From: an uncultured Chlorobiaceae bacterium | GTDB lineage: Bacteria; Bacteroidota; Chlorobiia; Chlorobiales; Chlorobiaceae | Assembly: GCA_903843305.1 (NCBI GenBank) | Contig: CAIMPI010000035.1 | Span: 1 to 64,000, forward strand | Length of the DNA stretch: 64,000 nt | Reading direction: 5' to 3' | Notes under the pieces: generated by a model | What the model was told of the DNA's origin: nothing | The model's database searches: none | What the model saw: only the letters and a program-made list of their open reading frames with translations | Translations under genes and position numbers: made by a program | Part shown: positions 815 through 16,270 of the stretch, piece after piece | Position numbering within the stretch: the stretch's first letter is position 1 | Layout: each line of letters opens with the position of its first letter

Positions 815-1511
815 TTATATAGTATTCCTTGAAATTATTCAGCAGATCGCCTAATCAATATGAATAGAAGAAAGAACCTAACCCAAGTAGCTCTAATGCA
901 ATGCAATTGATTTCGACCTAATAGATCTGAAGAATGGAGTTGAATATCATTGAAAGGTAGATATTAATACATTTAAAGAAAAGTTAGCAAATAATACATG
1001 CTGGGAAGCAGAATGCCAGCAAAGCCGCCCAACCGGGTACAGTCAAGCGGGATGAAGAGCGTAAACACCCTGCCAGCCTGTCACCCTCTCTCTCTATGCA
1101 CCACCAGCGCCCTGCCATCTCGCCTCTGCCTCCGTTCGTCTGATTTGTTCCAACTGTTAACGGTACGGGTACGTTGCGTTAGCGCTTCCACAGGCCCGCC
1201 TCACTGCAGCTACGGCTTGGGCAGAGCACTTCATCGGAAGGCGAGGTATTGATACGAAGCAAGCTTGCGCCTTTCCCGGCAACCGGCAACTCCACTTCGC
1301 TCCGCTACCGGTCACCTCCCTTATGCGCAAATAAAGAGACGAACTTTGGGCTCTGCACCCTCCGGAGTACCGGAAGCTGCTTTGCCTGCAGCATTGCTGC
1401 CGAGCGCCGAGTACAGCGCTCCGCTTCATGAAAAGCGTCTGCGCGCTTCGCTTGCTGACGTCGGAACAGAGCATCTGGCGTCAAGAACACGTTGCCGCGT
1501 TGCGGCAAGCA

Positions 1512-1622
1512 TTACATAATAGGAATTATAGACCCGGCGCGGGAAAGGCAGGATTGCAGGAAATGAAGTCAGGAGGCCGCGCCTACACGGGGTACCGTGT
1601 TCTATAATTCTCCATTATGTAA
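1512..1622. repeat. Nested inverted repeat, MITE-like
   Basis: The left arm at 1512-1532 (TTACATAATAGGAATTATAG) is nearly the reverse complement of the right arm at 1599-1622, differing by a couple of bases and a small offset. Inside them a second complementary pair, GGCGCGG (about 1536) and CCGCGCC (about 1577), would extend the stem. The whole unit of about 110 bp can fold into one long hairpin. No transposase is nearby, which fits a non-autonomous element. Confidence 0.5.
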
Positions 1623-2060
1623 AGTCGGGTTATGGCGGGCCACCTTACCTTTGGCGTTTTCATCTAAGCTAACGTGCCGCTTGATTACAGAAAAAACTCC
1701 ACAGCGCGAGAGTACCGCACTGTTACGTGTGATAGTATGGCACAATACAGCATTGCCTCTCCATCGATTCGGCTCCGGCAGGCTCCGCCTCACTCAGTCG
1801 GGCAAAGCTGCAATGTGCATGAAGAGCGTATCGCTTCGCGCCAAGCATCGAGGGCTCAAGCCACCATGAGAAACCAGCGCCCTGCATCTCACCTCCGCTT
1901 CCGCTTGTCTGTCTTGTTCCGCAGCCGCTCCGCAGAAGCTCCGCAAGGCGCTCCACAAGCCAGCCGCGCGTCAGCTCCGGTTCGTGCAGCGCACTTCATA
2001 GGCAGCCGACCTTCAGACCGATAGCATTGCAGCACAGCACCGAGTAGGGCGCTAAGCTGC

Positions 2061-2373
2061 ATGAAGAGATTTCTGCGCGCTTCGCTTGCCAGCAGGCAGG
2101 CGGCGGGGATGCGGCGCAGAAGAGCGGGCTTTGGCTGCTGCTGGCTGGGCATGGTGGGGCGTAGGGTCTAATCATCTGGATAGAGACTGCAACCGAAGAG
2201 CTTTCACGGAACCTCCACTATAGCGTCAGGCAGCCGCCCGCCATCTCCTTGCTGCTCCTCATGCTCATCTTGCGGCCTGCCCGGCGCCTTCAAGCTCTCC
2301 GCGCTTCGCTTGGGTCGCAATACTGCTCAGTCACGCTGCTTGCAAGAGAAAGAGCAAGCGGCCCGCCTTTGCA
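2061..2373. repeat. Tandem duplication, copy 1
   Basis: A 313-bp unit starting ATGAAGAGATTTCTGCGCGC is followed directly by a second copy with the same order of sub-motifs (GGCTGCTGCTGGCTGGGCAT, GACTGCAACCGAAGAGCTTT, AGGCAGCCGCCCGC, CGCTGCTTGCAAGAG). A third, shorter relative is at 1391-1456. The copies differ by scattered substitutions and small indels, so the duplication is not fresh. Confidence 0.75.
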
Positions 2374-2700
2374 ATGAAGAGATTTCTGCGCGCTTCGCTT
2401 GCTGGCAGAGCGGAGCGGAGAAGTGCAGTGCAGAAGAGCAGGCTTTTGGCTGCTGCTGGCTGGGCATGGCGGGGCGCAGGGTCTGATCATCCGGATAATA
2501 GAGACTGCAACCGAAGAGCTTTTACGGAACCTCCACTGAAGCGTCAGGCAGCCGCCCGCAATCTTCATGCTGCTCCTCATGCTCAGCTTGCGGCCTGCCC
2601 GGCGCACTCAAGCTCTCCGCGCTTCGCTTGGAACTCGCGATGTGCTGCTCAGTCACGCTGCTTGCAAGAGGAAGAGCAAGAGCAAGCAGCGCGCCTTCGC
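2374..2700. repeat. Tandem duplication, copy 2
   Basis: Second copy of the 313-bp unit, starting with the same 20 bases and slightly longer through small insertions, for example an extra GAGCAA in the purine loop near 2675. It ends in GCGCGCCTTCGCAATTAAGAG, where copy 1 has a corresponding junction. Confidence 0.75.
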
Positions 2701-2787
2701 AATTAAGAGCGTATCGCTTCGCCGTGCCATGCGTACCTCTTGCTGCTCAGCTACCGGACCGTCGCCCCTATGCTCCGCTGCCCTTCA

Positions 2788-2825
2788 GGCACGCCGTTTG
2801 CAGGGAAGAGAGCAAACGTCGTGCC
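2788..2825 (+). repeat. Purine-loop hairpin, best-paired member of a five-copy family
   Basis: GGCACG-C-CGTTTGC pairs with GCAAACG-T-CGTGCC around the loop AGGGAAGAGA, giving 13 base pairs with one mismatch. Sister hairpins lie at 2336-2363, 2657-2690 (9-bp stem), 3026-3054 (10-bp stem) and 3107-3125. The others use GCTTGC/GCAAGC stems. This one uses CGTTTGC/GCAAACG, a compensated change. The loops are all purine-rich (AAGAG or AGGAG type). Confidence 0.5.
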
Positions 2826-3240
2826 TTCGTTCCTCTCCGCATAAGCGCTACTCATTGGCAGGCAAGGTTCAGAGGGCAAGAATATTGCAACGCCTTACGC
2901 TTCGCTTCAGGCATTGCATCTTATGGGGCGTGTTCGCCTCCGCGTCTTTTCGTCGGGCTCCCTGTATGCCGCATCGGCTCACACTTCAGCCCGGCTGCGC
3001 CGTGCGCTTGCCAGCGGGTTTGTCACGCTGCTTGCAGGAGAAGAGCAAGCAGCGCGCCAAGCCCTTGCCACAATCAGCTCAGCGCTATGCCTCCGCTGTC
3101 ATGCAACTTGCAGGGGGAAGGCAAGCAGCACGCCAGCGTAATGAAGAGCGCAAGGTAAAAAGGCTGCGGAGTACCGCACCCCTTTTACCTGCATGAAGAT
3201 GCGTCGCGGATTACCGCCACGCAAGAGAAGAGTAATGGGA

Positions 3241-3655
3241 AGAGAAGAAAGAAAAGAGCCACCAACAACCCCGCCCCCCGCCCCATATCATATTGGTGAG
3301 GTCAACGAAATGATGAGAAGATGTTTACTTGGGTATCGCAGGGGGAGTACCCCCCGCACCCCCGTGGTTGTTTATGGTGGTGTGTGTTTGGTTGCTGGGC
3401 GTGCGTCGGTGTGCGTTCCGGTCCCTTTTGCCCCCGTGTTGGTTGCCTTTCGGCGGCAGCGTCTTTATGGGCTGGCTCCGCCCCCCATTTCCCCCTGGTG
3501 CTCGGGCTTCAGTCTCCAGCCTTCCCCAAGTGCGGCAGCCGGTCAGCGTTCGCCAAGCCACGGCCAGCCTGCTTTTTTATTACATTTTGTTTACTCTTTT
3601 TTTAGTTGCATTTGTTGTTTATTTTAGTTAACTTGTTATAATTTAATTAATTAAG
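3241..3655. other. G/C-tract region and putative promoter ahead of the SLOG-like gene
   Basis: No gene is supported. The stretch has homopolymeric G and C runs, including a GGGGG-AGTA-CCCCC hairpin at 3341-3354, and then becomes abruptly AT-rich from about 3575. A TATAAT at 3637-3642 preceded by TTGTTT at 3615-3620 could be the promoter of the gene at 3665. Confidence 0.4.
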
Positions 3656-3664
3656 TTGATCGTC

Positions 3665-4174
3665 ATGGTAGGGTTTTCAGGGTCAAGGCATCTCACCGGC
3701 GCCCATTTCGCAACAGTCAAGCAGGTTGCAGCAGCGGTGGCAGCGGCAGGTCATCCGGTTGCGGTTGGGTGTGCTGCTGGCGCAGATTTGGCGGTCAGGT
3801 CGGCTGTTCCAGGTGCGCAGGTTTTTGCTGTGGCGGCGCAGGCATCCCGCCAGGCATTTGCAGTGCGCTCCGTCCAGCTCGTGCAAGCGGTGGCAGCGTC
3901 CAGCAGCCCGGCTCTTGTTGCTTTTCCTGTGCAGCCGTGCCCTTCGGGTCTCGTGCCGTCCAAGCAGTCTGGCAAGTGCTTCAGCGGGCGCGGATCTGGC
4001 ACCTGGGCAAGTGTTGCGCTGGCGGTGGGTCTCGGTGTGCCGGTGTTTGTGTTTTGGTCCGGAATGGGTGTGCCGGTTTTGCCATCGTGGGGCGCATGGG
4101 TGCCGGTTTCATCGGGTGCATTTGCAGGCGCTTATCAGCTCCAGGCGGGGCATCAGCAGTCACTTTTTCAATAA
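3665..4174 (+). CDS. SLOG-like (DprA/LOG-related Rossmann) small protein
   Basis: A protein of 169 residues from the ATG at 3665 (a TTG three codons upstream is an alternative). The opening VGFSGSRHL followed by a helix and then VAVGCAAGADLAV matches the N-terminal nucleotide-binding pattern of SLOG/LOG/DprA folds: a strand, GxSGSR, and a later G(C)AxGAD. The second half has GSGTWASVALAVGLGVPVFVF, like the GT/GE motif region of that superfamily. Composition is extreme (Ala and Val dominate, GC-rich codons), unlike the AT-rich DNA starting at about 4180. SLOG proteins bind nucleotides or nucleotide signals. The substrate here is unknown. Confidence 0.55.
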   Translation: MVGFSGSRHLTGAHFATVKQVAAAVAAAGHPVAVGCAAGADLAVRSAVPGAQVFAVAAQASRQAFAVRSVQLVQAVAASSSPALVAFPVQPCPSGLVPSKQSGKCFSGRGSGTWASVALAVGLGVPVFVFWSGMGVPVLPSWGAWVPVSSGAFAGAYQLQAGHQQSLFQ

Positions 4175-4379
4175 GTCAATAAATCTTCTCATGGGAAATG
4201 TCAGTTAAAAAGCAGGGTGTAACAGAAGATCTGCATAATTTGTTTGGGAAAAATTAAGTCGGCCACAATTTCGTTTAACTATATATTATTAAATAATTTA
4301 ATTTTGTTTTTTCTTTATTTTCTTTATATTTAAGTGTGTTTAATAAGTGTTTTTAACGTCTTAAAAATAGGGAGCGTGA
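4175..4379. other. AT-rich spacer at the composition boundary
   Basis: No gene is visible. The sequence switches from GC-rich codons to runs of A and T (for example TATATATTATTAAATAATTT at about 4282), marking the likely left side of the phage-derived element. I could not find a direct repeat matching the right-hand junction at about 14170. Confidence 0.35.
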
Positions 4380-5078: not shown

Positions 5079-5108
5079 AATGGCGGGGGAGCAAACCCCG
5101 CCATTTTT
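5079..5108. terminator. Bidirectional Rho-independent terminator
   Basis: A perfect 10-bp stem, AATGGCGGGG (5079-5088) and CCCCGCCATT (5096-5105), with a 7-nt loop and T/A tracts outside. It lies between the convergent genes ending at 5040 (+) and 5113 (-). Confidence 0.85.
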
Positions 5109-5112
5109 GTGC

Positions 5113-5469
5113 CTACCCAATCACAATGATCTTATCGTTTGGTTCCTGCTCCGGTTTCACATTCCTTTTGCTATATCGTTCAGGATAACGCCGCTCAAGA
5201 TACCACGCCGACGCCTGCCAGGTTTTTTTTGACGCCTGAATGATGTTGTCAAGGTGCGTTTGCTCATGGAGTGCTTCAGCGTCCGGTACACCGTCGTAAA
5301 GCTGGCGCTGCAAGCTATCAACACCGTTATCAGCATCAGTCCGGCCCTGTCTTGTCCACTCAAAATAGGTTACTTTCGTAATGTTGCAGGCAACACAAGC
5401 CGCTTTTACCGTGTGACCAGCAGCAATGAGGTCAAGCAGTCTTTTTATGCGGGCGGCAGAGAGTTTCAT
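5113..5469 (-). CDS. Phage terminase small-subunit-like HTH protein
   Basis: A 118-residue protein. Residues about 5-40 form a helix-turn-helix (RIKRLLDLIAAGHTVKAACV then TYFEWTRQGR). The second half contains WQASAWYLERRYPERYSKR, a phrase common in phage small-terminase or terminase-associated proteins. Small terminase recognises the packaging site on phage DNA. No large terminase is nearby. It has its own promoter/operator region (5473-5512) and is separated from the early operon by a terminator at 5527, so it is a distinct transcription unit. It could instead be a plain DNA-binding regulator. Confidence 0.55.
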   Translation of the reverse strand: MKLSAARIKRLLDLIAAGHTVKAACVACNITKVTYFEWTRQGRTDADNGVDSLQRQLYDGVPDAEALHEQTHLDNIIQASKKTWQASAWYLERRYPERYSKRNVKPEQEPNDKIIVIG

Positions 5470-5472
5470 TGT

Positions 5473-5512
5473 GGTAATCTTACCATAAATTTTACCTCAA
5501 TTTAGTGGTAAA
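5473..5512 (-). promoter_or_regulatory. Putative promoter/operator of the TerS-like gene
   Basis: Contains a perfect palindrome GGTAATCTTACC (5473-5484) just before the start codon. A second inverted pair, TTTACC-N10-GGTAAA, lies at 5491-5512. The same GGTAAA/TTTACC words recur in the repressor/excisionase intergenic region at 11991-12106. Confidence 0.45.
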
Positions 5513-5526
5513 AATAGACAAAAGAA

Positions 5527-5546
5527 AGCCCGGTTTTTGCCGGGCT
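5527..5546 (-). terminator. Rho-independent terminator of the early operon
   Basis: AGCCCGG (5527-5533) and CCGGGCT (5540-5546) form a 7-bp stem. On the minus strand it is followed by TTTCTTTTG. It lies directly after the Gp157-like gene. Confidence 0.75.
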
Positions 5547-5552
5547 CTCATG

Positions 5553-6239
5553 TTATCTGATAGTGAACGTTTTTTCGGCGGGTATGAGATAGGGCGGCCA
5601 CTCTCGGTTTGTGCCTTGGTAGTGTGTGGCCAGCGCTGTCAAATCATATTTTGGCTCGCTTACCTTCACTTCACATCCTGTGGCAGCTTGTAGTTCCTTT
5701 GCATAGGTTATCCAGGTGCCGATCCCATCATCATCAAACGTAACAGTAACTTGGTAAGTGCTCATCCCTGTGATTCGCAGATCCTGTGCATCCTCTTCGG
5801 TAAGGAACTCAGGCAGAATTTTTACAGGAGTGCATGGTTTTGTGAAATAGTAGCTACCCTCCGGTGTTTTGATCTTCTCTTTGCCAGTCAGCAGCAGCGC
5901 AGCTTTCATCGTTCCACGCAGCCACTCAATGCCGCTTTTTATACCACTCTTCCTTGCTTTGTAGCTCTTCTCTTTTTCTTCGAGGTATGCAACCTGCCCT
6001 TTCCAATAGTCAATCAATCCTTTGCAGGCGTCGAGTTTCTTTTCTATTTCACCTTCAACGAGGGTCATCTGGTCACCATACACCGCCAACCCGCCGCTCT
6101 CAATCAAGGACTCTTCGATTTTCTGGTATCTCTGGATAAGGTTCGCAAGCGTTAGCGGCTTTGCTTCGACCGCTTCAACCATGAACTCCCGCAGGGGGTT
6201 TTCTTTCAGCTCAATTGCATCACTGGTCAAGTTCTCCAT
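5553..6239 (-). CDS. Gp157-family phage protein
   Basis: A 228-residue protein. It begins with a short acidic head, then TLANLIQRYQKIEESLIESG, a long coiled coil (GEIEKKLDACKGLIDYWKGQ then VAYLEEKEKSYKARK) and the turn IKSGIEWLRGTMKAALLLTG. This is the signature arrangement of the siphovirus Gp157 family, small phage early proteins linked to phage resistance in Streptococcus. A clear GGAGG precedes the ATG. It lies 2 bp after the stop of the upstream gene and is last before the terminator. Exact function is unknown. Confidence 0.7.
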   Translation of the reverse strand: MENLTSDAIELKENPLREFMVEAVEAKPLTLANLIQRYQKIEESLIESGGLAVYGDQMTLVEGEIEKKLDACKGLIDYWKGQVAYLEEKEKSYKARKSGIKSGIEWLRGTMKAALLLTGKEKIKTPEGSYYFTKPCTPVKILPEFLTEEDAQDLRITGMSTYQVTVTFDDDGIGTWITYAKELQAATGCEVKVSEPKYDLTALATHYQGTNREWPPYLIPAEKTFTIR

Positions 6240-6241
6240 TG

Positions 6242-7273
6242 TTAAAGTTCCTCCGCTTTTTTGGTGATAAACAGTGAGAATTTTATGATCTGACCTGCAA
6301 TGACTTCATTCAGGCCCGCCGCTTTTTTTGATCCGCACACCGGCAAATAGCTTTTCAGGATATCCACTTGTTTGGCAAAGGTTATCAGCGCCGCTTTATC
6401 CTTGCTAATGAGCGTTGCTTCGTTATCCGCGCGTAATGGCTCTGGCGTCGCCGTGACTGCATTTTTCGCCGTGCCGTTTGCCGGTGTTGGTGGTGTCGGT
6501 AACTTTGGCAGGGGGGGCAGGTTTGGCTTATCAGCCGCAATCTTGTCAAACCCTGTAACGCTCTCTATCGGTTGTCCTGCAAATCTCTGTGGCTCTTGCT
6601 CAGGCATTGGCGCCGCTTCCGGAATTGCCGGTGGTGGGCTAAGCTGTGCTTCGAGTTCAGCGATCCGCCGCTTCATGGCTTCGGCTTGTTCTTCCGCCGC
6701 CAGCTTGTCATCCAACAATTTTTTATCGGCAGCGTCTTTCGCCGTCCTGGCTTTTATGGCATCCGCCAGCATTAGCGCTATCTTGGCTTCTGGCATCCCG
6801 CGCAGCTCCTCCTGGCTGTGGTACTTGCCATACCTCGCAAACTCTATTCCGATCGCATTCAGCCGCTCATTCTCCGCTATGAGCTTCCGTGCCTCTTCCT
6901 TCCGTTTCTCATCCCTCAGCGTTTCAATCCTGTTCTCTTCGTTTATCAGCTCCTGCTCAACCTTTTGTACGCGGTCAACAACATATTTTTCCGTCTGTAA
7001 CCAGCGTCGTTGTTCGGCTATAGCGTCATTGCGGCCAACCTTGCAGACCCTTTCGGTCGTGGTGCGCACTTTCTTGCAGTACTTCCGGGCATCACTGACA
7101 AGCTTTATACCCTGCACATCTTCGAGGCCATTGATTCGCAACCCCTTGTAGTTTATCTCTATTGCTCTAAGCTCAGACTCGATTACGTTCTCTTTCCCGA
7201 GCGCAATGGCTTGAGGTGTTCCGGCTTCAAGCATAACCGTTTGATCAATAACTGCTATTTCTGTTCCTGGCAT
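6242..7273 (-). CDS. Phage coiled-coil protein, unknown function
   Basis: Start chosen at 7273 (MPGTEIAVIDQ) because the preceding minus-strand bases are AAAACACAAACGACC-ATG, the leader shared with the ERF gene. The longer frame to 7396 would translate a hairpin and overlap the previous gene. The product is 343 residues. Residues about 50-200 are charged helices (ELINEENRIETLRDEKRKEE, KLLDDKLAAEEQAEAMKRRI) predicted to form a coiled coil. A Pro-rich linker (about 205-285) and a small C-terminal helical domain follow. It resembles phage DUF1351-type proteins in layout, but I cannot confirm the family. Confidence 0.6.
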   Translation of the reverse strand: MPGTEIAVIDQTVMLEAGTPQAIALGKENVIESELRAIEINYKGLRINGLEDVQGIKLVSDARKYCKKVRTTTERVCKVGRNDAIAEQRRWLQTEKYVVDRVQKVEQELINEENRIETLRDEKRKEEARKLIAENERLNAIGIEFARYGKYHSQEELRGMPEAKIALMLADAIKARTAKDAADKKLLDDKLAAEEQAEAMKRRIAELEAQLSPPPAIPEAAPMPEQEPQRFAGQPIESVTGFDKIAADKPNLPPLPKLPTPPTPANGTAKNAVTATPEPLRADNEATLISKDKAALITFAKQVDILKSYLPVCGSKKAAGLNEVIAGQIIKFSLFITKKAEEL

Positions 7274-7351
7274 GGTCGTTTGTGTTTTGGTTCTTGTTGC
7301 TTTTTCGTTATCATCAAGTTCAGGCTTGGTCGCCTGTGTTTTGTTTGACTT

Positions 7352-7373
7352 AGCCCCGGCTTTCGTCGGGGCT
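7352..7373. terminator. Hairpin in the early operon, possible attenuator
   Basis: AGCCCCG (7352-7358) and CGGGGCT (7367-7373) form a 7-bp stem between the 7380-7715 gene and the start at 7273. The T-tract on the minus strand is weak, so it may modulate rather than stop read-through. Confidence 0.45.
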
Positions 7374-7379
7374 TTGTCG

Positions 7380-7715
7380 TTATCCCGCCTCTGCATATCG
7401 CAAAGACTTCACTCTCAAGAGTTCTTCAAGCTGCTTTACTCGTTCCAGTAACGCCTGGTACTTTTCACTTTGCTCATCACCGATATGATTGAGCGGCATA
7501 AACCTTCTTTCGTAACAAAGGATGCCGTTGTGGCACATTTGCGGGTAAGAAAACTGCTGCACCAGACCTAAATAGTAAAGCTCTTCGCACATCGCATCCT
7601 CTTCAGTGCGCAACGCATGGCCGCATAACCGAAGCATAAGTTCAACGTATTGCTCTGGTGTCTTATTCAACTCTCCACGTTTCCATGCCCTGTAAATTCT
7701 GTCTTCGTTTGTCAT
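7380..7715 (-). CDS. Hypothetical phage protein
   Basis: A 111-residue, mostly helical protein starting MTNEDRIYRAWKRGELN and ending in a leucine-heptad segment (YQALLERVKQLEELLRVKSL). No recognised domain. Its minus-strand leader AACGACCAATACC-ATG is a short version of the element's A/C-rich start signal. Paired TTTGTCTAAA motifs lie just upstream (7775-7825), so it may begin a sub-operon. Confidence 0.55.
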   Translation of the reverse strand: MTNEDRIYRAWKRGELNKTPEQYVELMLRLCGHALRTEEDAMCEELYYLGLVQQFSYPQMCHNGILCYERRFMPLNHIGDEQSEKYQALLERVKQLEELLRVKSLRYAEAG

Positions 7716-7774
7716 GGTATTGGTCGTTAAGTTTTAGATTATTTTCCTTTTTCCTTACAGTAATAAGGTAATCA

Positions 7775-7825
7775 TTTTGTCTAAATTTATCTAATTTTGT
7801 CTAAATTTTTCTATCTAATTTTATC
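7775..7825 (-). promoter_or_regulatory. Paired TTTGTCTAAA operator-like repeats
   Basis: TTTTGTCTAAATTT at 7775 and again at 7795, exactly 20 bp (two helical turns) apart, with related ATCTAA words between and after. The same motif, also 20 bp apart, occurs at 12035 and 12055 upstream of the repressor gene. Confidence 0.5.
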
Positions 7826-8402
7826 ATAATTTTTGATCAGTAAACATGTTGGTTAAAATTACTCTTGTTGCAGTGATATCGGAGAGTGCATCATGTGCAT
7901 TATGGTGGATTCCGTAGTACTTGCACACGGTAGAGAGTTTGTAATCAGGCAGCGAAACAAGGCCTTTATAATCCCATATCCGCAACACAGGCAGCGGGTC
8001 TAACGCCTTCCAGTTGTGATAGCTGCCAGAGCCATACTTGCTGCCATGGTGCCGGAACCAGGCATCGAGAAACTGGATATCAAAGGCGACGTTATAGCCT
8101 GCAGGGTAGGCTTTGTCTGCTTTGTCCATCTTATTGATATGTTTGTCCAGGAATCGCAGGAACTCGCGGTAAGCATCTGAACTTGTTGTTCTGGTTTTCA
8201 ACTCTTCCGGGTCAGTTTCGTTAACCTTCAGAGCATCAAGGTTTATTTCGGCTCCCTGGTGTGGCTGAAATTTCATACTGTAGCGGTCTACAATTTCGCC
8301 CCCTATATCCATAAGTGCGGCTAACTGGATAATCCCATGCTTCCCGGCATCAAGGCCAGTTGTTTCAACGTCGAAGTAGAGTACTTTCTTGAAAAGGTTC
8401 AT
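7824..8402 (-). CDS. DnaQ/RNase T-type 3'-5' exonuclease
   Basis: A 192-residue protein with the DEDD exonuclease motifs: Exo I FDVETTGLD (about residues 9-17), Exo II GYNVAFDIQFLD (about 102-113) and Exo III HDALSDITA (about 170-178, the DEDDh type). Such enzymes trim 3' ends or proofread during phage replication or recombination. It sits in the early operon downstream of the replication genes, with a poly-A-rich leader before its ATG. Confidence 0.8.
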   Translation of the reverse strand: MNLFKKVLYFDVETTGLDAGKHGIIQLAALMDIGGEIVDRYSMKFQPHQGAEINLDALKVNETDPEELKTRTTSSDAYREFLRFLDKHINKMDKADKAYPAGYNVAFDIQFLDAWFRHHGSKYGSGSYHNWKALDPLPVLRIWDYKGLVSLPDYKLSTVCKYYGIHHNAHDALSDITATRVILTNMFTDQKL

Positions 8403-8447
8403 GATTCTTTTTTTTTATAGGGGTAAGATTGGTAAGTTTTTCTGCAT

Positions 8448-9185
8448 TCATTTTCCATGGTGCGCATCAAAAAAAGCCTGCACAGCCTTCTCTCTTTTCT
8501 CTTCGGTCGGCTGCTCCCGGACGTGCAGTTTCTCATCTTCCGGCAAGCTGTAGTAGTACTCAAGCCGCGCCGGTTGCGGCAGCTCTTCCCATTCCAGCAG
8601 CAAGTAAGCTTCTTGCTTGTGCTGCTCACAAAAGAGCGGCCACATCCCGAGTATGATGGCAGCCCGAACCCCACCGGCAGCAAGGGGTACAGGTTCATTG
8701 ATCTGCTTGCTTTCCTGTTCAATCCTCGTCAGTTCAGTGGCCGCCTCTTTGGTGTACCGCTGTTGTGTCCTCACATCCTCAAGGAGCTGGCGTGCATCGG
8801 CCTTTTCCGGCAATGGCGAAAAGGTGGTAAACTGAAACTTTGTTTGCTCCGCCTGAGTGTACCATGCCCCAAGCTCTGCTACGGTGATCCGCATGCCGTG
8901 CAGCATTTGCGTTATGCCGAGATCCGCAGTTCCAGGCGGAACGCTTCCGGTCTCTTTCTCAATCGCTTTGGCATAGGTCTTGCCTTTGATGACTTGCAGG
9001 GTACGCACCGCCCGTTCAATGTCGGTAAGGGTTGCCTGTGTTGTGTGCTGGCGAGCCAGTGCCTTTGCGGCAGCATAGTTCCCGCCAAGTTGACGTACAG
9101 CAAGTTCAGCTATGGGTTTCAAGCCATCGGAGATTTTCAGCCCCGTAAGCGCTTTCTTTGCTGCTGTTCCTGTTTGTTGTGTCAT
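8448..9185 (-). CDS. Hypothetical phage early protein
   Basis: Start set at 9185 (MTQQTGTAAKKALTG), directly after the leader AACAACGGCGACC on the minus strand. The upstream extension to 9278 lies in the replication gene. The 245 residues are mainly helical with a charged C-terminus (EEKREKAVQAFFDAHHGK), and I do not recognise a domain. It overlaps the 3' end of the replication gene by 80 bp in another frame, which is unusual even for compact phage operons and makes the start call depend on the leader motif. Confidence 0.55.
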   Translation of the reverse strand: MTQQTGTAAKKALTGLKISDGLKPIAELAVRQLGGNYAAAKALARQHTTQATLTDIERAVRTLQVIKGKTYAKAIEKETGSVPPGTADLGITQMLHGMRITVAELGAWYTQAEQTKFQFTTFSPLPEKADARQLLEDVRTQQRYTKEAATELTRIEQESKQINEPVPLAAGGVRAAIILGMWPLFCEQHKQEAYLLLEWEELPQPARLEYYYSLPEDEKLHVREQPTEEKREKAVQAFFDAHHGK

Positions 9186-9909
9186 GGTCGCCGTTGTTTT
9201 GGTGTTTGAAATGCCAGTGGAATGACTGCCATTCGGCAGCCATCGAAACCCGCAGCGCTTCAGCCGCAAGCGTTTCATTGCCCCCGCTCATATCATGGAG
9301 GAGCTGCAGAGCTTCTTCTGCAACGTGCTGGGAGCGATAAGGAGCCTTTTTGTTCTTGCTCCAGTTGTCCCAGGTCGTCGCGCAAAACGCGGTGCTGAAG
9401 CCGGGGTTCTTAAAAACCCCACTGGTGGAAAAATCCGGTACGCTTTTTGGCGTTTTTGCTCTTTCTTCTCTTCTTCTTCCATTCTTTTCATTCTTATCAT
9501 TCTTGTTTGTGGTCGGTCGCTGGTCTCTGGCTGGTCGTTCGTTGGTCGGCCGCTGGTCGTTTCCCTGCTCGTTTTCTTGGTCGTTCTGCAAGTCGCTATC
9601 CTGATAAATATCGTAATTCAATACTGTTATAAGGCTATAAGTGTTGGTCGTTCTGATGGTGATTTCCCTGGTCGTTTTTAGCCTTATTAAACATGTGCGA
9701 CAGGAACGCTCCGATATGCCTGTTTGCTCTGATAATGAGTGCCTGCCGGTAATCAACTGGCCTCTCAATACCTCGATGCCTTTCCACCGCCCAGGCTTAT
9801 GGTTTGCAGTAATGATGAGATGTATCAGCAGGTGGACCATGTGCGAATCGTGGTACCACTCCCAGGAGGTAATGCGCCGAAATAACTTGATGTATCCTGC
9901 CTCAGTCAT
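9106..9909 (-). CDS. Phage replication protein (winged-helix, DnaD/replisome organiser type)
   Basis: A 267-residue protein. The N-terminal half (GYIKLFRRITSWEWYHDSHM then RGQLITGRHSLSEQTGISER) is the typical winged-helix of phage replisome-organiser proteins, with the TGxxxLSxxTGISxxxxRxxL pattern. A low-complexity Asn/Arg/Thr linker (about 150-180) follows, then a helical C-terminal part. Its ATG overlaps the TGA of the RusA-like gene (ATGA), so the two are translationally coupled. Likely role: origin binding or helicase loading for the element. Confidence 0.65.
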   Translation of the reverse strand: MTEAGYIKLFRRITSWEWYHDSHMVHLLIHLIITANHKPGRWKGIEVLRGQLITGRHSLSEQTGISERSCRTCLIRLKTTREITIRTTNTYSLITVLNYDIYQDSDLQNDQENEQGNDQRPTNERPARDQRPTTNKNDKNEKNGRRREERAKTPKSVPDFSTSGVFKNPGFSTAFCATTWDNWSKNKKAPYRSQHVAEEALQLLHDMSGGNETLAAEALRVSMAAEWQSFHWHFKHQNNGDHDTTNRNSSKESAYGAENLRWLETHS

Positions 9910-10322
9910 GGCAAAATCCTTAACTCAACCCGAGGGGCATTTTTATCGATTTCATAAGGCAGGTAAACGGGAAGCAGGTGATCGGCGCAATCGTCAACAA
10001 TAAGCTCGGCTTTGACCATGCAATCAAAAAGGTTCTGGCAGATATTGTTGTAATCAAACCGCCGCCCCGTCTGGCGGTAAATCTTGATCTGCAGCCTGAT
10101 CGGCAGTGGCATTCTTTGCACCTCGTGGCAAAATGAGGCAACAAAGGCAGGGTTGCAGGCGAAAAGCCGCAGCAGGCGCTTTGCCTGGGCGCTTGCTGCA
10201 TGGCTCTTGATCACCTTCCTTATCGTTTTGCCTTTCTCATCTTTGTAGATGAGCGGCAATCGGGAATTTTTGGATGAGTAAAGCTCTCCCGGAATGATAA
10301 AGGTGTTCGGCTCATCAATCAT
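9906..10322 (-). CDS. RusA-like Holliday junction resolvase
   Basis: A 138-residue protein with the RusA layout: N-terminal IIPGELYSSKNSR, a central strand pair, then RRFDYNNICQNLFDCMVKAE and LIVDDCADHLLP. RusA resolves Holliday junctions with clustered Asp residues. Here the usual DxDN reads DYNN, so the second Asp is Asn, while the downstream DD is kept. Related phage proteins with DYxN exist to my knowledge, so activity is likely but not assured. ATGA overlaps couple it to both neighbours. Confidence 0.75.
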   Translation of the reverse strand: MIDEPNTFIIPGELYSSKNSRLPLIYKDEKGKTIRKVIKSHAASAQAKRLLRLFACNPAFVASFCHEVQRMPLPIRLQIKIYRQTGRRFDYNNICQNLFDCMVKAELIVDDCADHLLPVYLPYEIDKNAPRVELRILP

Positions 10323-10732
10323 TTTCCAAGCACCGTGATTTTGCCATTGTGCCGGTCATCATAGGCGGGTGCGTTGGCATCGTCATCAAAGAGCCGCGCC
10401 TGCATTTCGTGGATCTCAAGCGGTCGCGTTTCGACGAATTCGCCGGTATCGGTACGAATAACGGTGATGGTTCTTGTCTCGTAATTTTTTTGCGTTGTGC
10501 ATTTGATGGCACGGTACTCATAGCCATCATGCAAGGCAGTGGAGAGGCCGGAGGCCTCAAGGGTATGGATATCGATTTTGGTTTTAAATGTGGCAGCACT
10601 GGCCTTCTTTTCTTCGTTCAAAACCTCAATCGCCTGCACATGTTCCGCGAGCGCCGCGCCTCTCTCCATCTTCTCATCATCAGTGAGCAAGCATTTCAAG
10701 TTCAGGGTTAAAACATCTTGCATGTCTATCAT
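10319..10732 (-). CDS. Hypothetical phage protein between ERF and RusA
   Basis: A 137-residue protein. The N-terminal helical half (LTDDEKMERGAALAEHVQAI then EVLNEEKKASAATFKTKID) is followed by a beta-rich C-terminal part (NYETRTITVIRTDTGEFVET). The location between a recombination annealing protein and a resolvase suggests a recombination accessory factor, but this is context only. Minus-strand leader: CACAAACAACCCCGACC-ATG. Its stop overlaps the next start (ATGA). Confidence 0.6.
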   Translation of the reverse strand: MIDMQDVLTLNLKCLLTDDEKMERGAALAEHVQAIEVLNEEKKASAATFKTKIDIHTLEASGLSTALHDGYEYRAIKCTTQKNYETRTITVIRTDTGEFVETRPLEIHEMQARLFDDDANAPAYDDRHNGKITVLGK

Positions 10733-10753
10733 GGTCGGGGTTGTTTGTGGTTA

Positions 10754-11614
10754 TTAAAAGGGCGCGCCATCATCATAATTCGTGTATTGGGGAGGCTCCT
10801 GATACACCGGGTATTGCTCGGTTTGCTCCTGTTGCACCGGCTGGAAAATGCTTGGCGTTTGACCCTGCAGAAAGGCATTGAGCGCATCAATCAGCGCGCT
10901 GCATTGATCGGCGGTCAGACCGTTCCTGATGTACCCATCAATCTGGTTGGATTCTGCCTGGCTTACCTTTTGGCGCCCGGCCAGATCGCGCAGATACTGC
11001 AACGATTTCGATGATGCTGGCCTGTCATTGCTCTGCTGCCCGTCCCGTCTGTACCCGTTCTGATGCGCCTGAGCAGCAGGGCGCTGCTCTTGCTGCTGTC
11101 TGGCAGGCAGGCCATTTCCGTTATGGTGCTGATATTGTGGAGGGGGCTGCTGCTGGTAGCCGCGCGATTGGGGCTCTGGCGAGGTGGCATCCGGATCATC
11201 GCTATCAAGAGTAGGTATCATAAAAATCTGAAGGATGGCTGTTTTGTGCGACATGCTCATGGCCTTGTTGCTTGCTTTGTCGCTGCTGTCCATGGCTTGC
11301 CCCATGGCCTGGGTTTCAAGGTAACTGCCATCAATTGCCGTAAAGCGGTATTTGACCTGCAAGGCATATTCAATCATCAATTTGCCCTTCTCATTCGTCC
11401 ATACTTCTCGTTTAAAATTCAGTATTTCGGATGTCGTGAAGACCTGATATTGCACAAAGAGCGGATGCAGTGTATTGTAAACCTCATCAATCCCCCTGAA
11501 TTTGTAAGGAAGATCACCGTTGGATTTTGTTTTTTTGATGGCTGGCACTTCAGCCATAATAGCGGCGATGCGCTCGTAAATGAGAGGGTGTTTTTCTTGT
11601 GTGTTGTTGTCCAT
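10754..11614 (-). CDS. erf: ERF-family single-strand annealing protein
   Basis: A 286-residue protein. Residues about 8-130 match the ERF superfamily: KTKSNGDLPYKFRGIDEVYN, then a strand-rich core and GSYLETQAMGQAMDSSDKAS, NKAMSMSHKTAILQIF. A Gln-rich linker (about 145-190) and a small C-terminal domain (RDLAGRQKVSQAESNQIDGY) follow. ERF proteins anneal complementary strands during phage recombination. The start at 11614 follows the best copy of the leader, ACAAAACACAAACGACC-ATG. It is the first biosynthetic gene after the excisionase-like gene. Confidence 0.8.
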   Translation of the reverse strand: MDNNTQEKHPLIYERIAAIMAEVPAIKKTKSNGDLPYKFRGIDEVYNTLHPLFVQYQVFTTSEILNFKREVWTNEKGKLMIEYALQVKYRFTAIDGSYLETQAMGQAMDSSDKASNKAMSMSHKTAILQIFMIPTLDSDDPDATSPEPQSRGYQQQPPPQYQHHNGNGLPARQQQEQRPAAQAHQNGYRRDGQQSNDRPASSKSLQYLRDLAGRQKVSQAESNQIDGYIRNGLTADQCSALIDALNAFLQGQTPSIFQPVQQEQTEQYPVYQEPPQYTNYDDGAPF

Positions 11615-11647
11615 GGTCGTTTGTGTTTTGTGGTTGTTTGTTGTTGG

Positions 11648-11989
11648 TTATGCCACTTGCTCAATAATCGGCGCCTTTCTTTTTGGATGCTTTAAAAACT
11701 CGGTAATGTCTTCACGAAGGAAATAGAGCGTCGAACCATTCTTGCTGTAGGGAATCCGTCCTTTGTGTACCCTGCTGTATACCGCAGTGCGGGTTACCGT
11801 TCTGCCTTCAAGCATTGTCAGGTATTCTGCACAAACATCAATCCTCATAGGCTCACTCTGCACCGCAGTCTGCACCGCATGCTTTTCGCCAAGCTGCTTG
11901 ACAAGGCGGTCAACCTTCGAAGAAAGCGACGCAACCAGAGATGGGAGCTGGTCAAACGTTGGGGTAATTCCTTTGTCTTTTTTTTCCAT
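11648..11989 (-). CDS. Excisionase/MerR-like helix-turn-helix protein
   Basis: A 113-residue protein. The first 45 residues form a helix (LPSLVASLSSKVDRLVKQLG). The C-terminal 60 residues are a winged HTH of the excisionase type, MRIDVCAEYLTMLEGRTVTR then VHKGRIPYSKNGSTLYFLRE and DITEFLK. Such proteins act as recombination directionality factors or early regulators. It is divergent from the repressor gene at 12124, sharing the 11990-12123 control region. Confidence 0.65.
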   Translation of the reverse strand: MEKKDKGITPTFDQLPSLVASLSSKVDRLVKQLGEKHAVQTAVQSEPMRIDVCAEYLTMLEGRTVTRTAVYSRVHKGRIPYSKNGSTLYFLREDITEFLKHPKRKAPIIEQVA

Positions 11990-12123
11990 TTTTTACCTAT
12001 ATTTGTTTCTAAAAGTAATTAACTCTTTCCTTTATTTGTCTAAATTAAGGTAAATTTGTCTAAAATAAAAGAAAAAAAATAGATAAATAAGGTAAAATCA
12101 GGTAAAAGAAAAGGAGAAAGCCT
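11990..12123. promoter_or_regulatory. Divergent early switch region with operator-like repeats
   Basis: AT-rich intergenic DNA between the excisionase-like gene (-) and the repressor (+). TTTGTCTAAA occurs at 12035 and 12055 (20 bp apart). GGTAAA occurs at 12049, 12091 and 12101, the last two as a 10-bp direct repeat, with TTTACC at 11992. These words also occur at 7775-7808 and at 5491-5512, consistent with one regulator acting on several promoters of the element. Confidence 0.5.
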
Positions 12124-12477
12124 ATGAAAAAGGGTAAAACAGAAGTGGGGAAACGGCTTGAAGAGGAATTGCGCAAAAAGTTTGGCACTATCTCTGCAGC
12201 AGCAAAAGCAGCAGGTGGCGCGGATGCCTCTTATTTTGGTTCGTACTTGACGGGACGCAGCGGGTTGGGTAAGTTGGTCATCACCAAGCTTGAGAAAATG
12301 GGCATTGATGTAAACTATGTTCTGAATGGCAGGGAAGAACCGAAAGCCAACGATCAGTCTGCTTTGCGTGATCTTCTTCAAAAGAAGGTTACCGATCTTG
12401 AATACCGGTTATCTCAAGCCGCCTCAGAACTGAAAGAAATGTCGGATCTTATTCAGAACTCGGGAATAGGGAAATAA
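12124..12477 (+). CDS. Phage-type repressor (HTH plus C-terminal coiled coil)
   Basis: A 117-residue protein with a good AAGGAG site before the ATG. Residues about 8-60 (KRLEEELRKKFGTISAAAKA, SYFGSYLTGRSGLGKLVITK, LEKMGIDVNYVLNG) match the phage CI/Cro-like HTH family in which GIDVNYVLNG closes the domain. The C-terminus (KVTDLEYRLSQAASELKEMS) is a coiled coil, likely for dimerisation. It has no LexA-type self-cleaving domain, so if this is the lysogeny repressor, induction must use another route, such as an antirepressor or a helper protein. Confidence 0.7.
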   Translation: MKKGKTEVGKRLEEELRKKFGTISAAAKAAGGADASYFGSYLTGRSGLGKLVITKLEKMGIDVNYVLNGREEPKANDQSALRDLLQKKVTDLEYRLSQAASELKEMSDLIQNSGIGK

Positions 12478-12622
12478 TGATATCGGCTTGATAAGTTATC
12501 ACTGTAACGCAATATTCAAGTAAAAATCGGCTCTCCTCAATCAAGGTGAACGATTTGGTAACAAGCTCTTTGCATCGCTCGTATTGTTGTTCTGTTATAG
12601 CAGGGATGGGATTGGTTATCAT
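12449..12622 (-). CDS. Small hypothetical protein
   Basis: Starting at the ATG at 12622 (MITNPIPAITEQQYERCKEL) it encodes 57 residues, mainly one helical region (VTKSFTLIEESRFLLEYCVT) and a hydrophobic end. Its minus-strand leader AACTGCACC-ATG loosely resembles the element's A/C-rich leader. It overlaps the 3' end of the repressor by 29 bp. Weak support; it could be spurious. Confidence 0.35.
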   Translation of the reverse strand: MITNPIPAITEQQYERCKELVTKSFTLIEESRFLLEYCVTVITYQADIIISLFPSSE

Positions 12623-12705
12623 GGTGCAGTTCTGATTGTAATAAAACACAATAAGGCGCGTAATTTAGTACAATAAAAAAGGAATTACAACTCTAATCGC
12701 ACATT

Positions 12706-13875
12706 TTACCCTTCGAGAGAAATTGCGTTGGCAGCTTGACGGCGACTTTCATTAATAACGTGAGCATAAATCATGGTCGTTTTGAGATCGGCGTGACCCA
12801 GCATTTCACTCACTATCTTGATGTTAATGTTCGCTTTCAGAAGTAGTGTCGCATAGGTGTGTCGCATCGTGTGGAAGGTTACCTTTTTCTCAATTCCAGC
12901 GGCACTAATCCAATTTTTGAAAAATGGAGTTGGGCGATGGTATTGCAAATCTTGAATCCGTGGGAAAATAAGTCCAGTTTCGAGCTTGTCGCTTAACTCC
13001 TCTTTATGCTGCTTTGTTCTGGAGGTCATGTTCTCTGTGATCTCCTTGGCTTCATTGAGGATCTGAAAAGCAGATTCAGAGATAGGGAGATAGTTGACTG
13101 AACGCGTTTTCTTTTGGGTAAAATGAATGCAGTGACCAGAAGACTCACTCCCAATATCTTCCCACTTCAAACTTGCAACATCACTAAAACGCAATCCCGT
13201 GAGAGCTGAAAAAAGAGCTGCAGCTTTTAGAATCGGTTTTTCACATGGAGTCTGATACAGCTTGATCAGCTCCTCTTGTGTCAGGTAAACAATTTTTGTT
13301 TGGAGCTGTCTGATAGTCTGCACCTGTTCAGTGATCCGCTTTTTTATAAAGTCATGCCGGTAGGCATAGTTCAGAGCGGTGCGAAGATGCACAAAATAAA
13401 TAGCCGCAGCATTGTTGGAAAAGCGATTTAACAAATAGGATCGGAAATCATCAACAACCTTGCTGTTCAGGTCAGAAAAATAGAAAGGTTGCCCTGGCTT
13501 TAATTGTAAAAATTCCTGAAAATATTTCAACGTGGATCTCCATGACCTGTAGTGCGTTGGTGACGACTTCCTGTCTGCAAGCAGTTTCTCATAAAACTTG
13601 ATAAAGTCAACCGGAGCACTATCAACCAGAAAGCCATAGTGCCCGGCGTGTAGCTGCAATTGAGTTTTCGAGAGCACAGCATTAGCTACTGCAAGGGTAT
13701 CCTTATTCTCTTTTCGTTCTTCGGAGGTTTTCGGATTGGCGTGAAGGTACATGCCCAGGTTGTGCCACCTTGTAAGCTTTCCAGTTTCAGGGTGAGGAGC
13801 CGGGGGGTAGATGTCGAGACGCAGGGAGTAACGAGTATCGTTATCAATAAGGCGCTTCCGCAGGGTGACTTTCAT
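12706..13875 (-). CDS. int: Tyrosine recombinase / phage integrase
   Basis: A 389-residue protein from the ATG at 13875 (MKVTLRKRLIDNDTRYSL), preceded by GCAAACGACCAAACCACAGCC. The frame extends to 14073, but that part covers palindromic repeats and is not protein-like. There is an N-terminal Arm/SAM-like domain (about 1-220) and a catalytic domain with Arg in ALTGLRFSDVASLKWEDI, the HxxR box HTMRHTYATLL, LGHADLKTT and the Tyr in MIYAHV. It is similar to Bacteroidetes/Chlorobi element integrases (Arm-DNA-bind_5 plus phage_integrase layout). It lies at the element's right end, next to the interrupted haemagglutinin gene. Confidence 0.9.
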   Translation of the reverse strand: MKVTLRKRLIDNDTRYSLRLDIYPPAPHPETGKLTRWHNLGMYLHANPKTSEERKENKDTLAVANAVLSKTQLQLHAGHYGFLVDSAPVDFIKFYEKLLADRKSSPTHYRSWRSTLKYFQEFLQLKPGQPFYFSDLNSKVVDDFRSYLLNRFSNNAAAIYFVHLRTALNYAYRHDFIKKRITEQVQTIRQLQTKIVYLTQEELIKLYQTPCEKPILKAAALFSALTGLRFSDVASLKWEDIGSESSGHCIHFTQKKTRSVNYLPISESAFQILNEAKEITENMTSRTKQHKEELSDKLETGLIFPRIQDLQYHRPTPFFKNWISAAGIEKKVTFHTMRHTYATLLLKANINIKIVSEMLGHADLKTTMIYAHVINESRRQAANAISLEG

Positions 13876-13923
13876 GGCTGTGGTTTGGTCGTTTGCGTTA
13901 TGAGAAAAAATATTGACTGCTTT

Positions 13924-14034
13924 GAACCACGGAACAAGAGGAGCAGTATTTGTACCATGGAACAAATCTTTACCATCAACATAATATTTGTTCCGTGCAA
14001 CAAATTTAATCCATGGAACAAATATGGAACAAAA
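13924..14034. repeat. Repeated GGAACAAAT palindromes upstream of int
   Basis: Imperfect palindromes TTTGTACCATGGAACAAAT (13949-13967), TTTGTTCCGTGCAACAAAT (13987-14005) and TTTAATCCATGGAACAAAT (14005-14023), plus half sites at 13931 and 14024. Between the int start and the host junction, such repeats fit arm-type integrase sites or an int operator. Confidence 0.55.
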
Positions 14035-14167
14035 AATAGCAAAGAACAAAAAGAAATAGCAAAATGAAGACAAAAGGTTTACTGTTAACTATCATAAAAT
14101 GATAGAGTTGATTGGTTAGGTTTTGTCTGCGTTTTTCCCTGTTTTGCTCTGTTTTGCTATTAGGCGA
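14035..14167. other. Right junction of the mobile element
   Basis: No gene. The segment between the int-proximal repeats and the haemagglutinin frame includes an ATCATAAAATGAT palindrome (14089-14101) and a repeated TTTTGCTCTGTTTTGCT stretch (about 14143-14159). Host-like coding sequence resumes at about 14172, so the attachment core should lie within a few bases of 14160-14175. Confidence 0.4.
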
Positions 14168-16270
14168 TTAGACCACGTAATTGCCGTTTGTCAGTCCGGC
14201 TACTTTCGATGAAGTGCCATCATTTGCCGTTGAACCTACCAGACTGTTGGTTGCGCTTATAACTCCAATCGTACCACCGGATCCATTTCCCCAAGTTACT
14301 GCACCTGCATCAGGAATAGTACCATTGTCCCAACCCGGTGAATTTATAACGTAATTCCCATTACTGAGGCTTGTCAAAGAAGAGAGAGTTCCATCATTGA
14401 GAGAAGAACCGATCAGGCTGTTGGATTTGGAGACGCTTCCACTGACACCTGAAGTTCCATCAATCCAGGTTACCGCACCGACACTTGCTACTCCTGCGTT
14501 CGACCATTTCCTTGTTATGGTGACAGCATTGTTGTTGCCTGTAAGGGCGGTTACTTTTTCACCAACCTGATCATTTGCGGTCGAGCCGCTCAGCATTGAA
14601 ATCAAGGTGCCATCCGGTTTATAGAGCCTGACAGCACCAGCATCGGTTGCAACAAGATCATCCAGAGGACTGGCGACAATAATATTGCCGTTCAGCAGTT
14701 CGACGATGTTGCCGGAACCATGTTGGTCACCTTCTGCCGGATTTGAATCAGGAAGCGAAATGAGAGAGAAGAGAGGAATCGCAGTGTTTGCGTCGATGGT
14801 GATGTTACGTGGATCAAGCAGCAGCAATCCGTTTTCTCCGTGGGGTGCGGTCATGGAGACTTGGCCGCTCATGGAAAGGTTTTCATGCCCCGAGACTTCT
14901 ACTTGTCCACCATTGCCACTATTTGTTCCTCCCTTGCTCTCAATAGTGCCAGCAAAAGTGGTTGACTGCTCTGACCAGACCACTACTGTGCCGCCATTGC
15001 CTGTGTCAAGAGCGTTGGCGTTAAGGTTGCTGCTTTTTGTTATAACGGTGCTTATTGCGTTGGCAAGAGAGGGATTTTTACCTTGCCAGCCACCACCAAT
15101 GAGGATAATTCCACCACCAGTTTTTCCGTCAGACATTATCCGGGTACCTGCGATGAGCGTTTGCGGCGCAGTAATGAAGATCTGACCACCCTCTCCCGAG
15201 GTACCGTTTGTACTGATGGTACCGGAGAGGTAAAGATTCTTTCCTGCCTGGATATGGATATCGCCTCCACTTTCTCCTTCAGCAGTCATGCGACTTTCGG
15301 CGGTTTGTTCTATGCTGCTTGTCACATCAATGCTTATCGTCCCCCCTTTGTTAATGTCGTCAGCATTCCAGATGCCCGAATCAACAAGATTATTCGCGCT
15401 TGCGTTGATGACAGAAGAGCTAAGTGTTCCGGTGTTAATGATGGCGCCACCTTCGATCACGATTTTACCATCGTGTTCTGTGATACTGCTTGCATGTATC
15501 TTGCCACTGTTATTAACCACCGAACCAAGCAGCTCATTGGCTGCTGAGGCGCTTATTATTACATTACCACCATCTGCTTCAATTACTCCGCTGTTTGTGA
15601 TCTGGGCGTTATATGCAGTCTTGTCAACCTTTATTGCTACAAGGCCGCAAGTATCCAGGTCAAGGGTAATTCCATCTCCGGCCGCTAAGCCGCTTGAACC
15701 TTTGGTGGTAATAATACTTCCGGTGTTTGTTGTACTGTTTCCGAGCAGAGCGATGAATCCACTGGATAAAGCGCTCTGGTTGATAATGGATCCTTTTTCG
15801 CCATTCTTAAAAAATGCGTATTTTTCTGCCAGGAAGTCGTTATCATTGATTGCGAGAGTAGAGGCCACAAGTCCACCGACGTTCACGCTTGCTCCGGGGG
15901 TAAACAACATGCCGTTCGGGTTCACCAGAAAGACTCTCCCGTTTGCGGTAAGTGTACCGAAAATTGATGAAGGATCATTGCCTGAAACCCTGTTGAGCAG
16001 GGTGGACTGGCTTGAAGGCTGAGTAATGTTGACTGCTTCACCCTTGCCGATACCAAAAGAATTCCAGTTAATAATAGCATGGTTGCTCTCTTGTCCGATC
16101 TGCATTGTAGTGGATGAGGGTGTACTGATGGTTACTTGCCCGGCCGCAATCTTTCCGTCGGTGGGTAACGCAAAAGCTCTGTCTCCGCCAAGCAATGATT
16201 GTGTTGCAACCGCAGCAATAATAAGCGAATTCCTGGTGTTGCTCCAGATGAGGCGATAAGCAGTTTCCAT
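14168..16270 (-). CDS. Filamentous haemagglutinin-type TPS exoprotein, truncated at the 3' end
   Basis: 700 residues remain. The N-terminus METAYRLIWSNTRNSL resembles the extended signal peptide region of two-partner secretion exoproteins, followed by a hydrophobic core ending AFA. Residues about 40-160 form the TPS haemagglutinin domain (ESNHAIINWNSFGIGKGEAV, NRVSG, FGTLTANGRVFLVNPNGML). A long repetitive beta-helix follows. The last part consists of repeats of about 50 residues (GAVTWGNGSGG, NSLVGSTANDGTSS, LTNGNYVV). The frame stops right after NGNYVV, mid-repeat, where element DNA begins, so the original C-terminus is missing. No TpsB transporter is in the window. Confidence 0.8.
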   Translation of the reverse strand: METAYRLIWSNTRNSLIIAAVATQSLLGGDRAFALPTDGKIAAGQVTISTPSSTTMQIGQESNHAIINWNSFGIGKGEAVNITQPSSQSTLLNRVSGNDPSSIFGTLTANGRVFLVNPNGMLFTPGASVNVGGLVASTLAINDNDFLAEKYAFFKNGEKGSIINQSALSSGFIALLGNSTTNTGSIITTKGSSGLAAGDGITLDLDTCGLVAIKVDKTAYNAQITNSGVIEADGGNVIISASAANELLGSVVNNSGKIHASSITEHDGKIVIEGGAIINTGTLSSSVINASANNLVDSGIWNADDINKGGTISIDVTSSIEQTAESRMTAEGESGGDIHIQAGKNLYLSGTISTNGTSGEGGQIFITAPQTLIAGTRIMSDGKTGGGIILIGGGWQGKNPSLANAISTVITKSSNLNANALDTGNGGTVVVWSEQSTTFAGTIESKGGTNSGNGGQVEVSGHENLSMSGQVSMTAPHGENGLLLLDPRNITIDANTAIPLFSLISLPDSNPAEGDQHGSGNIVELLNGNIIVASPLDDLVATDAGAVRLYKPDGTLISMLSGSTANDQVGEKVTALTGNNNAVTITRKWSNAGVASVGAVTWIDGTSGVSGSVSKSNSLIGSSLNDGTLSSLTSLSNGNYVINSPGWDNGTIPDAGAVTWGNGSGGTIGVISATNSLVGSTANDGTSSKVAGLTNGNYVV

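Follow-up and report, generated by a model that had tools for sequence, protein, structure and literature searches.

H is an uncatalogued hairpin family of green sulfur bacterial phages. It has no counterpart in Rfam and is conserved as a polar hairpin, the arms of which are kept complementary by a strict process, most likely selection. It can be said with moderate confidence that this constraint acts at the level of DNA. Five copies form an array in the window, by which is meant the whole stretch of 64,000 nucleotides analysed here (C35:1-64000, in a genome of 2.59 Mb). In the open-licence literature searched, on Chlorobium and green sulfur bacterial prophages, palindromic repeats and attC, no such hairpin array is described in a title or in the beginning of an abstract, and the words 'hairpin' and 'non-coding' are absent from the main text of a paper on green sulfur bacterial phages (PMC8163819).

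The window copies were recovered by a covariance model (R3) built from 31 hairpins, all of them from other genomes and none from the window, with which the 64-kb stretch was scanned. All five lie on the forward strand between 2323 and 3141 (E 1.5e-20 to 1e-8): copy 1 at 2323-2374 (49.7 bits, E 3.7e-14), copy 2 at 2645-2702 (57 bits, E 1.3e-16), copy 3 at 2781-2832 (33.7 bits, E 1e-8), and a tandem pair, aligned with its relatives, formed by copy 4 at 3015-3065 (68.6 bits, E 1.5e-20) and copy 5 at 3091-3141 (39.9 bits, E 7.8e-11). The spacer of this pair (3066-3090, forward strand) is conserved in the alignments. The model's three further matches in the window come from three of these five hairpins read in reverse. 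Copies 1 and 2 cannot be counted as independent because they are near-identical (97% identity over 36 nt) and belong to a duplicated block, about 320 bp apart. A second model (R1), made from 36 hairpins and used at a threshold of E <= 0.01, finds exactly five matches in the whole genome, all of them within the window array.

A sequence-only reading of this DNA had placed five hairpins here, and all are present at those places on the forward strand. The alternation of their stems between GCTTGC/GCAAGC and CGTTTGC/GCAAACG, the latter being the variant of copy 3, is likewise seen in the window sequence. The 13-bp stem described for copy 3 holds in part: both of its stem parts are present, but they are runs of 6 and 7 bp split by a C.T mismatch. 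Five hairpins with all-purine loops of 7-17 nt and stems of 5 bp or more lie between 2300 and 3160; in 500 dinucleotide shuffles of the same segment, such hairpins averaged 0.02 and never exceeded 1. The loops of the five copies are AAGAGAAAGA, AAGAGGAAGAGCAAGA, AGGGAAGAGA, AGGAGAAGA, and AGGGGGAAG.

The array is part of a hairpin-rich non-coding region (1000-3300, forward strand) with a G+C content of about 55-61%, in which the longest open reading frame (ORF) has no Pfam match. A coding reading of the array, by way of a 209-aa ORF at 2567-3196 that is without a Pfam match, was considered and rejected. By eye, 1000-3300 also holds many short hairpins whose tips resemble GGNGTACC, as well as ATGAAGAGCG boxes that are repeated, and both recur in relatives. 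Rfam gave no match at gathering score in the window and none at E <= 5 in 900-4300, and blastn of 1000-3800 against phages and plasmids returned no match.

What does an H unit look like? It is an imperfect inverted repeat of roughly 50 nt, composed in order of a covarying outer stem, a foot box, a covarying inner stem with freely changing pairs, a TTGC/GCAA clamp, and a free loop that varies in length. In the foot box, GTCAY stands opposite NCGCC, and T.C and A.C mismatches flank a single C-G pair. Among 117 distinct hairpins, the left side of the box has T in 106, C in 117, and A in 116, and the right side has C in 104 (T in 13), G in 113, and C in 114. The two strands are therefore distinguishable, since the T, C, and A of the foot box are near-fixed. 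The invariant letters (GNCA, TTGC/GCAA, and GCC) belong to the foot and the clamp and none to the loop, where 82% of the letters are purines and 8 of 36 aligned loops are all-purine. The common loop AGG(A/G)AAGAG proposed from the window copies fits one of the 36 aligned hairpins. Two parts of the unit had been missed in that proposal: the mismatched foot box, TGTCAY opposite NCGCCA at each hairpin base, and the outer stem, which covaries as well. H copies are often paired in tandem with a short spacer, and 16 such pairs were aligned.

The conservation of the structure was measured in two collections. Alignment A2 contains 36 of 41 collected hairpins; of the five left out by choice, four have irregular arms and the fifth a loop of very great length. 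The larger set was reduced from 142 rows to 126 by removal of 16 opposite-strand second readings and, by merging identical rows, to the 117 distinct hairpins mentioned above; some of its loci overlap (L052 with L093). Of the cells in A2, 87.0% are paired compared with 73.4% in shuffles, and there are 93 two-sided changes compared with 33.9 in shuffles, none of the 500 shuffles being as high. Twelve pairs carry a two-sided change, and the covariation is also far above that of slid controls. Selection for structure, as suggested from the five window copies, is supported by these counts and by 385 two-sided changes in the 117 distinct hairpins. One-sided changes are rare, with 8 in A2 and 31 in the larger set.

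Is it RNA or DNA that folds? In RNA, one-sided changes pass through G.U, and an RNA made from either strand should leave one mismatch type in excess. The signal recognition particle (SRP) RNA, present in 81 of 86 Chlorobiaceae genomes and sampled as 30 loci with 22 distinct rows, served as the RNA control and has 82 G.T and 1 A.C mismatches, with 20 one-sided and 17 two-sided changes. The excess of G.U over A.C expected of a structured RNA was found neither in H (G.T to A.C 10:10 in A2) nor in M4, a second element described below (5:5). In the 117 distinct hairpins the ratio is 50:36, in an alignment that was fitted to a G.U-tolerant model and so leans to G.U. The constraint is placed at the level of DNA because the wobble signature that the SRP control displays is absent. 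Predicted RNA folding of the whole window region is unremarkable, with a mean z of 0.18 on the forward and -0.43 on the reverse strand. When five array loci were folded, the strand opposite H had the lower summed energy in all five and the lower mean z in four.

Upstream of the array, on the same strand, lies M4, a T-shaped inverted repeat with two inner hairpins (1512-1626), which is also found in relatives. An alignment of the window M4 with 10 relatives (A1, 11 loci) has covariation and compensatory changes of its own. M4 has a short form of about 80 nt and a long form of about 118 nt, the difference being an insert within one of the inner hairpins. It stands upstream of H on the same strand at 9 of the 11 loci; one contig (L046) ends shortly after M4, and another (L048) carries M4 without a reported H. 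The idea that M4 is a miniature inverted-repeat transposable element (MITE) was rejected because its flanks are conserved too, and a search of IMG/VR for the exact M4 core found none.

With the second model, H was found in 31 of the 86 Chlorobiaceae genomes. In a sample of the Bacteroidota phylum, 32 of 394 genomes were positive (E <= 1e-4), three of them outside Chlorobiaceae, so that three other Bacteroidota families have hits. The H of these other Bacteroidota has the same foot boxes, and the clamp is also conserved between families. In one locus from another family (L232), three H copies lie in tandem repeats of about 0.5 kb (5083-6174), crowded with other small hairpins, and two of the three have a long AT-rich loop insert; an AT-rich H pattern was not found in IMG/VR, where an exact-pattern search located H on two contigs. 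In a distant member of the phylum (L231:1673-4108), a single H was seen by eye near ORFs resembling a JAB protease, a ThiF-like enzyme, and a single-strand binding protein. In the window's own genome, the end of another contig (G000:C9:1-2153, L035) carries blocks that are related to the non-coding region at 75-87% identity, and no H.

The array faces a phage module. The gene for the small terminase subunit (TerS; phrog_4102, E 1e-23) occupies 5113-5469 on the reverse strand, convergent with the array, and is followed by an early module that reaches to a tyrosine integrase (5553-14073, reverse strand; a repressor-like ORF at 12124-12477 is on the forward strand). Besides TerS, the module encodes Gp157-like, exonuclease, DnaD-like loader, and Erf-like proteins; the integrase itself lies at 12706-14073 on the reverse strand. 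The contig begins at window base 1, so the far side of the element is off-contig, and no structural genes are visible in the window. Between the array and terS, on the forward strand, is an ORF (3656-4174) with a weak DprA/SLOG-type match (PF02481, E 3e-4, which is below the cut-off of that model). Homologues occur in G012 and, as a partial copy, in G069, and the wider genome contig collection yielded no relative of the protein. The array is upstream of this ORF on the same strand at all three loci with a full copy (the window, G012, and the phage contig L234; L092:16599-17066 and L234:10798-11292).

In the window (12706-16270) and in G080 and G081 (L091, L094), the integrase adjoins a TPS-domain gene; G080 has two integrase homologues in tandem. 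There is no tRNA in the window, and no direct repeats that would mark element ends (att) were found for the window, L042, or element 1 of G038. Candidates for end repeats are one 15-bp match in G012 and at most one 12-bp match in G080, and a single 16-bp direct-repeat match at the G028 prophage was not accepted as an element end. In G038:C28:25407-36000 (L105, L189), a stretch of 10.5 kb is bounded by a direct repeat of 61 bp, into which part of tRNA-Ser(cga) falls. This element, with both ends visible, has two H near a RadC gene and a 427-aa ORF at its other end.

The link between H and TerS extends across genomes. Of the best 15 TerS hits in the 86 genomes (at least 171 bits), 11 have H within 0.8-3.0 kb, always convergent. 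For three of the remaining four, the contig stops 1.1-1.3 kb away on the side in question; at the TerS of G052:C78, about 3 kb are without H. On contigs with weaker TerS hits, H is often absent. Both features occur in 24 genomes, H alone in 7, TerS alone in 9, and neither in 46 (Fisher p 2.9e-8). This association may mark a type of phage instead of a joint function. Among 173 viral relatives of TerS, 80 were kept and two of these have H (L236 and L250); L236 looks like the G028:C4 locus because the scores are identical. A tblastn search of phages with TerS found one distant archaeal virus.

H occurs on phages with structural genes. The G028:C4 prophage has an integrase by tmRNA, DUF3987, a primase, TerS, four H, an MmeI-type enzyme, TerL, and a portal protein. 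The IMG/VR phage contig L234 encodes a major head protein (phrog_283, E 2.9e-87), scaffold, tail fibre, endolysin, and TerS, and has six H at 9617-10335 on the forward strand. A phage satellite as the general carrier was therefore rejected, and none is claimed for the window. On L234 (6608-13561) the array is flanked by ApeA on one side and by a NotI-type endonuclease and a D12 methyltransferase on the other. A defence scan of selected ORFs at 15 array loci found defence-type domains near six arrays: AbiGi (L042), NACHT (L051), MmeI (L104 and L165), Schlafen AlbA_2 (L169), and ApeA/NotI (L234). None was found at the other nine, partly scanned loci (L040, L041, L043, L045, L053, L090, L093, L105, and L170). 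Some arrays are in fragments without phage context, for example L232.

What could such an array do? The reading favoured here, and held tentatively, is that it is a polar, cis-acting folded-DNA site that is used in phage replication or recombination beside a cargo region. Its carriers would be temperate phages of green sulfur bacteria, together with related elements that have partly decayed. H would fold as DNA, either as a single-stranded hairpin or as a cruciform, and the folded form might be read with one polarity by a DNA-processing protein, a candidate partner. The task, which is the least certain step, may be strand-specific recombination or processing beside terS, where cargo such as defence genes varies. 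A folded-DNA site is suggested because the covariation is strong, wobble intermediates are nearly absent, and the mismatches are fixed and polar; a cis-element of phages is suggested because orientation towards terS is fixed and because of the phage context in L234. Against folded DNA stands the slight surplus of G.T over A.C in the larger set, and the purine-rich loops on one strand could suit RNA as well. Also against the favoured reading are the nine partly scanned loci without a defence domain, the seven of 31 H genomes without a TerS hit, and the presence of H at only 2 of the 80 viral TerS loci, by which it is no general companion of this TerS family. It is an unlikely, more specific version of the folded-DNA reading that H sites, with Watson-Crick-only changes in their arms, form a new class in phages, in which an enzyme acting on one strand rebuilds the cargo and defence-gene region next to terS, in the manner of attC sites without the integron integrase.

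The main rival, rather doubtful, is a structured non-coding RNA of phages in the manner of GOLLD and ROOL, with M4 and then H on one transcript. It would account for the strong covariation of both elements, the position of M4 ahead of H, the models' preference for one strand together with the purine-rich loops, and the array upstream of the full SLOG-type ORF. It is opposed by the lack of a wobble signature on either strand, which the SRP control has, by predicted folding of the whole region, which is nothing unusual in the window and does not favour the H strand at other loci, and by the lack of an Rfam match. Closeness to terS, the fixed orientation at 11 of the best 15 TerS hits, and the association across the 86 genomes would also suit a packaging or end-processing site to which the small terminase subunit, the product of the neighbouring gene, would bind. 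This is quite unlikely: a reader of duplex DNA would have no reason to keep arbitrary arms complementary, other genes lie between H and TerS in L234, and only 2 of the 80 viral TerS loci carry H.

Inverted repeats can also be perfected without selected function, by template-switch (quasi-palindrome) correction in decaying prophage DNA. Such correction yields two-sided Watson-Crick changes without intermediates, which is the pattern in H, and the arrays in fragments such as L232 would fit as well. It is nonetheless improbable here. Simple correction would erase the foot-box mismatches, yet more than 100 of the 117 hairpins retain them, and the letters of clamp and foot are conserved between bacterial families. 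The least probable function, bordering on the negligible, is the one first proposed for the purine loops, a mimic of ribosome-binding sites or a sponge for CsrA/RsmA. The window copies do have AGGAG-like loops, but across the 36 aligned hairpins the loop motif is unconserved, with AGGAG in 3 and GGA in 19. CsrA (PF02599) has no match in the window's own genome, which is 99.94% complete, and the same search detected it in the positive controls E. coli, B. subtilis, and T. maritima. To the extent that the assembly is complete, this refutes the CsrA reading.

H provides a searchable marker, with strong covariation, for the phages that infect green sulfur bacteria, and it is a case in which the pattern of paired changes can show whether selection acts on DNA in folded form or on RNA. 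If the DNA reading is true, a strand-reading enzyme works beside a phage cargo region; if the RNA reading is true, these phages encode an undescribed multi-domain RNA.

Is there a known system that H resembles? Integron attC sites carry a core, and none was seen by eye in H. The integron integrase (TIGR02249) is absent from the window's own genome and present in 6 of the 31 H genomes, without association across the 86 genomes (p 0.77), and the window spacers are without cassette genes. In these respects H differs from attC; the likeness is one of imperfect-hairpin arrays in which structure is kept over sequence and fixed irregularities mark the strands (PMC2727003, PMC6393395). The REP/RAYT (TnpA-REP) system also has imperfect palindromes that, in passages of one account, are thought to be read as single-stranded DNA and require GT[AG]G at the hairpin foot (PMC6006769). 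By eye, this foot is absent from H in alignment A2, and H, unlike REP, is clustered in phage-type loci with few copies per genome. A Y1 transposase is absent from 9 of the 31 H genomes and shows no association with H (p 0.60); in the window's own genome there are two Y1 matches, neither of them on C35 among the matches listed. Unlike GOLLD and ROOL, the array region has neither an Rfam match nor a wobble signature, and the window is without tRNA; what they share, going by part of one paper, is that phages and prophages carry a long non-coding segment with much structure (PMC12286853). The antiviral hotspots of phages and their satellites differ in that the array locus has a conserved, covarying hairpin array, a feature unmentioned at the start of the hotspot abstract (PMC9122126). 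As that same opening describes hotspots, the array locus resembles them in having variable anti-phage genes at a fixed place in related phages (PMC9122126).
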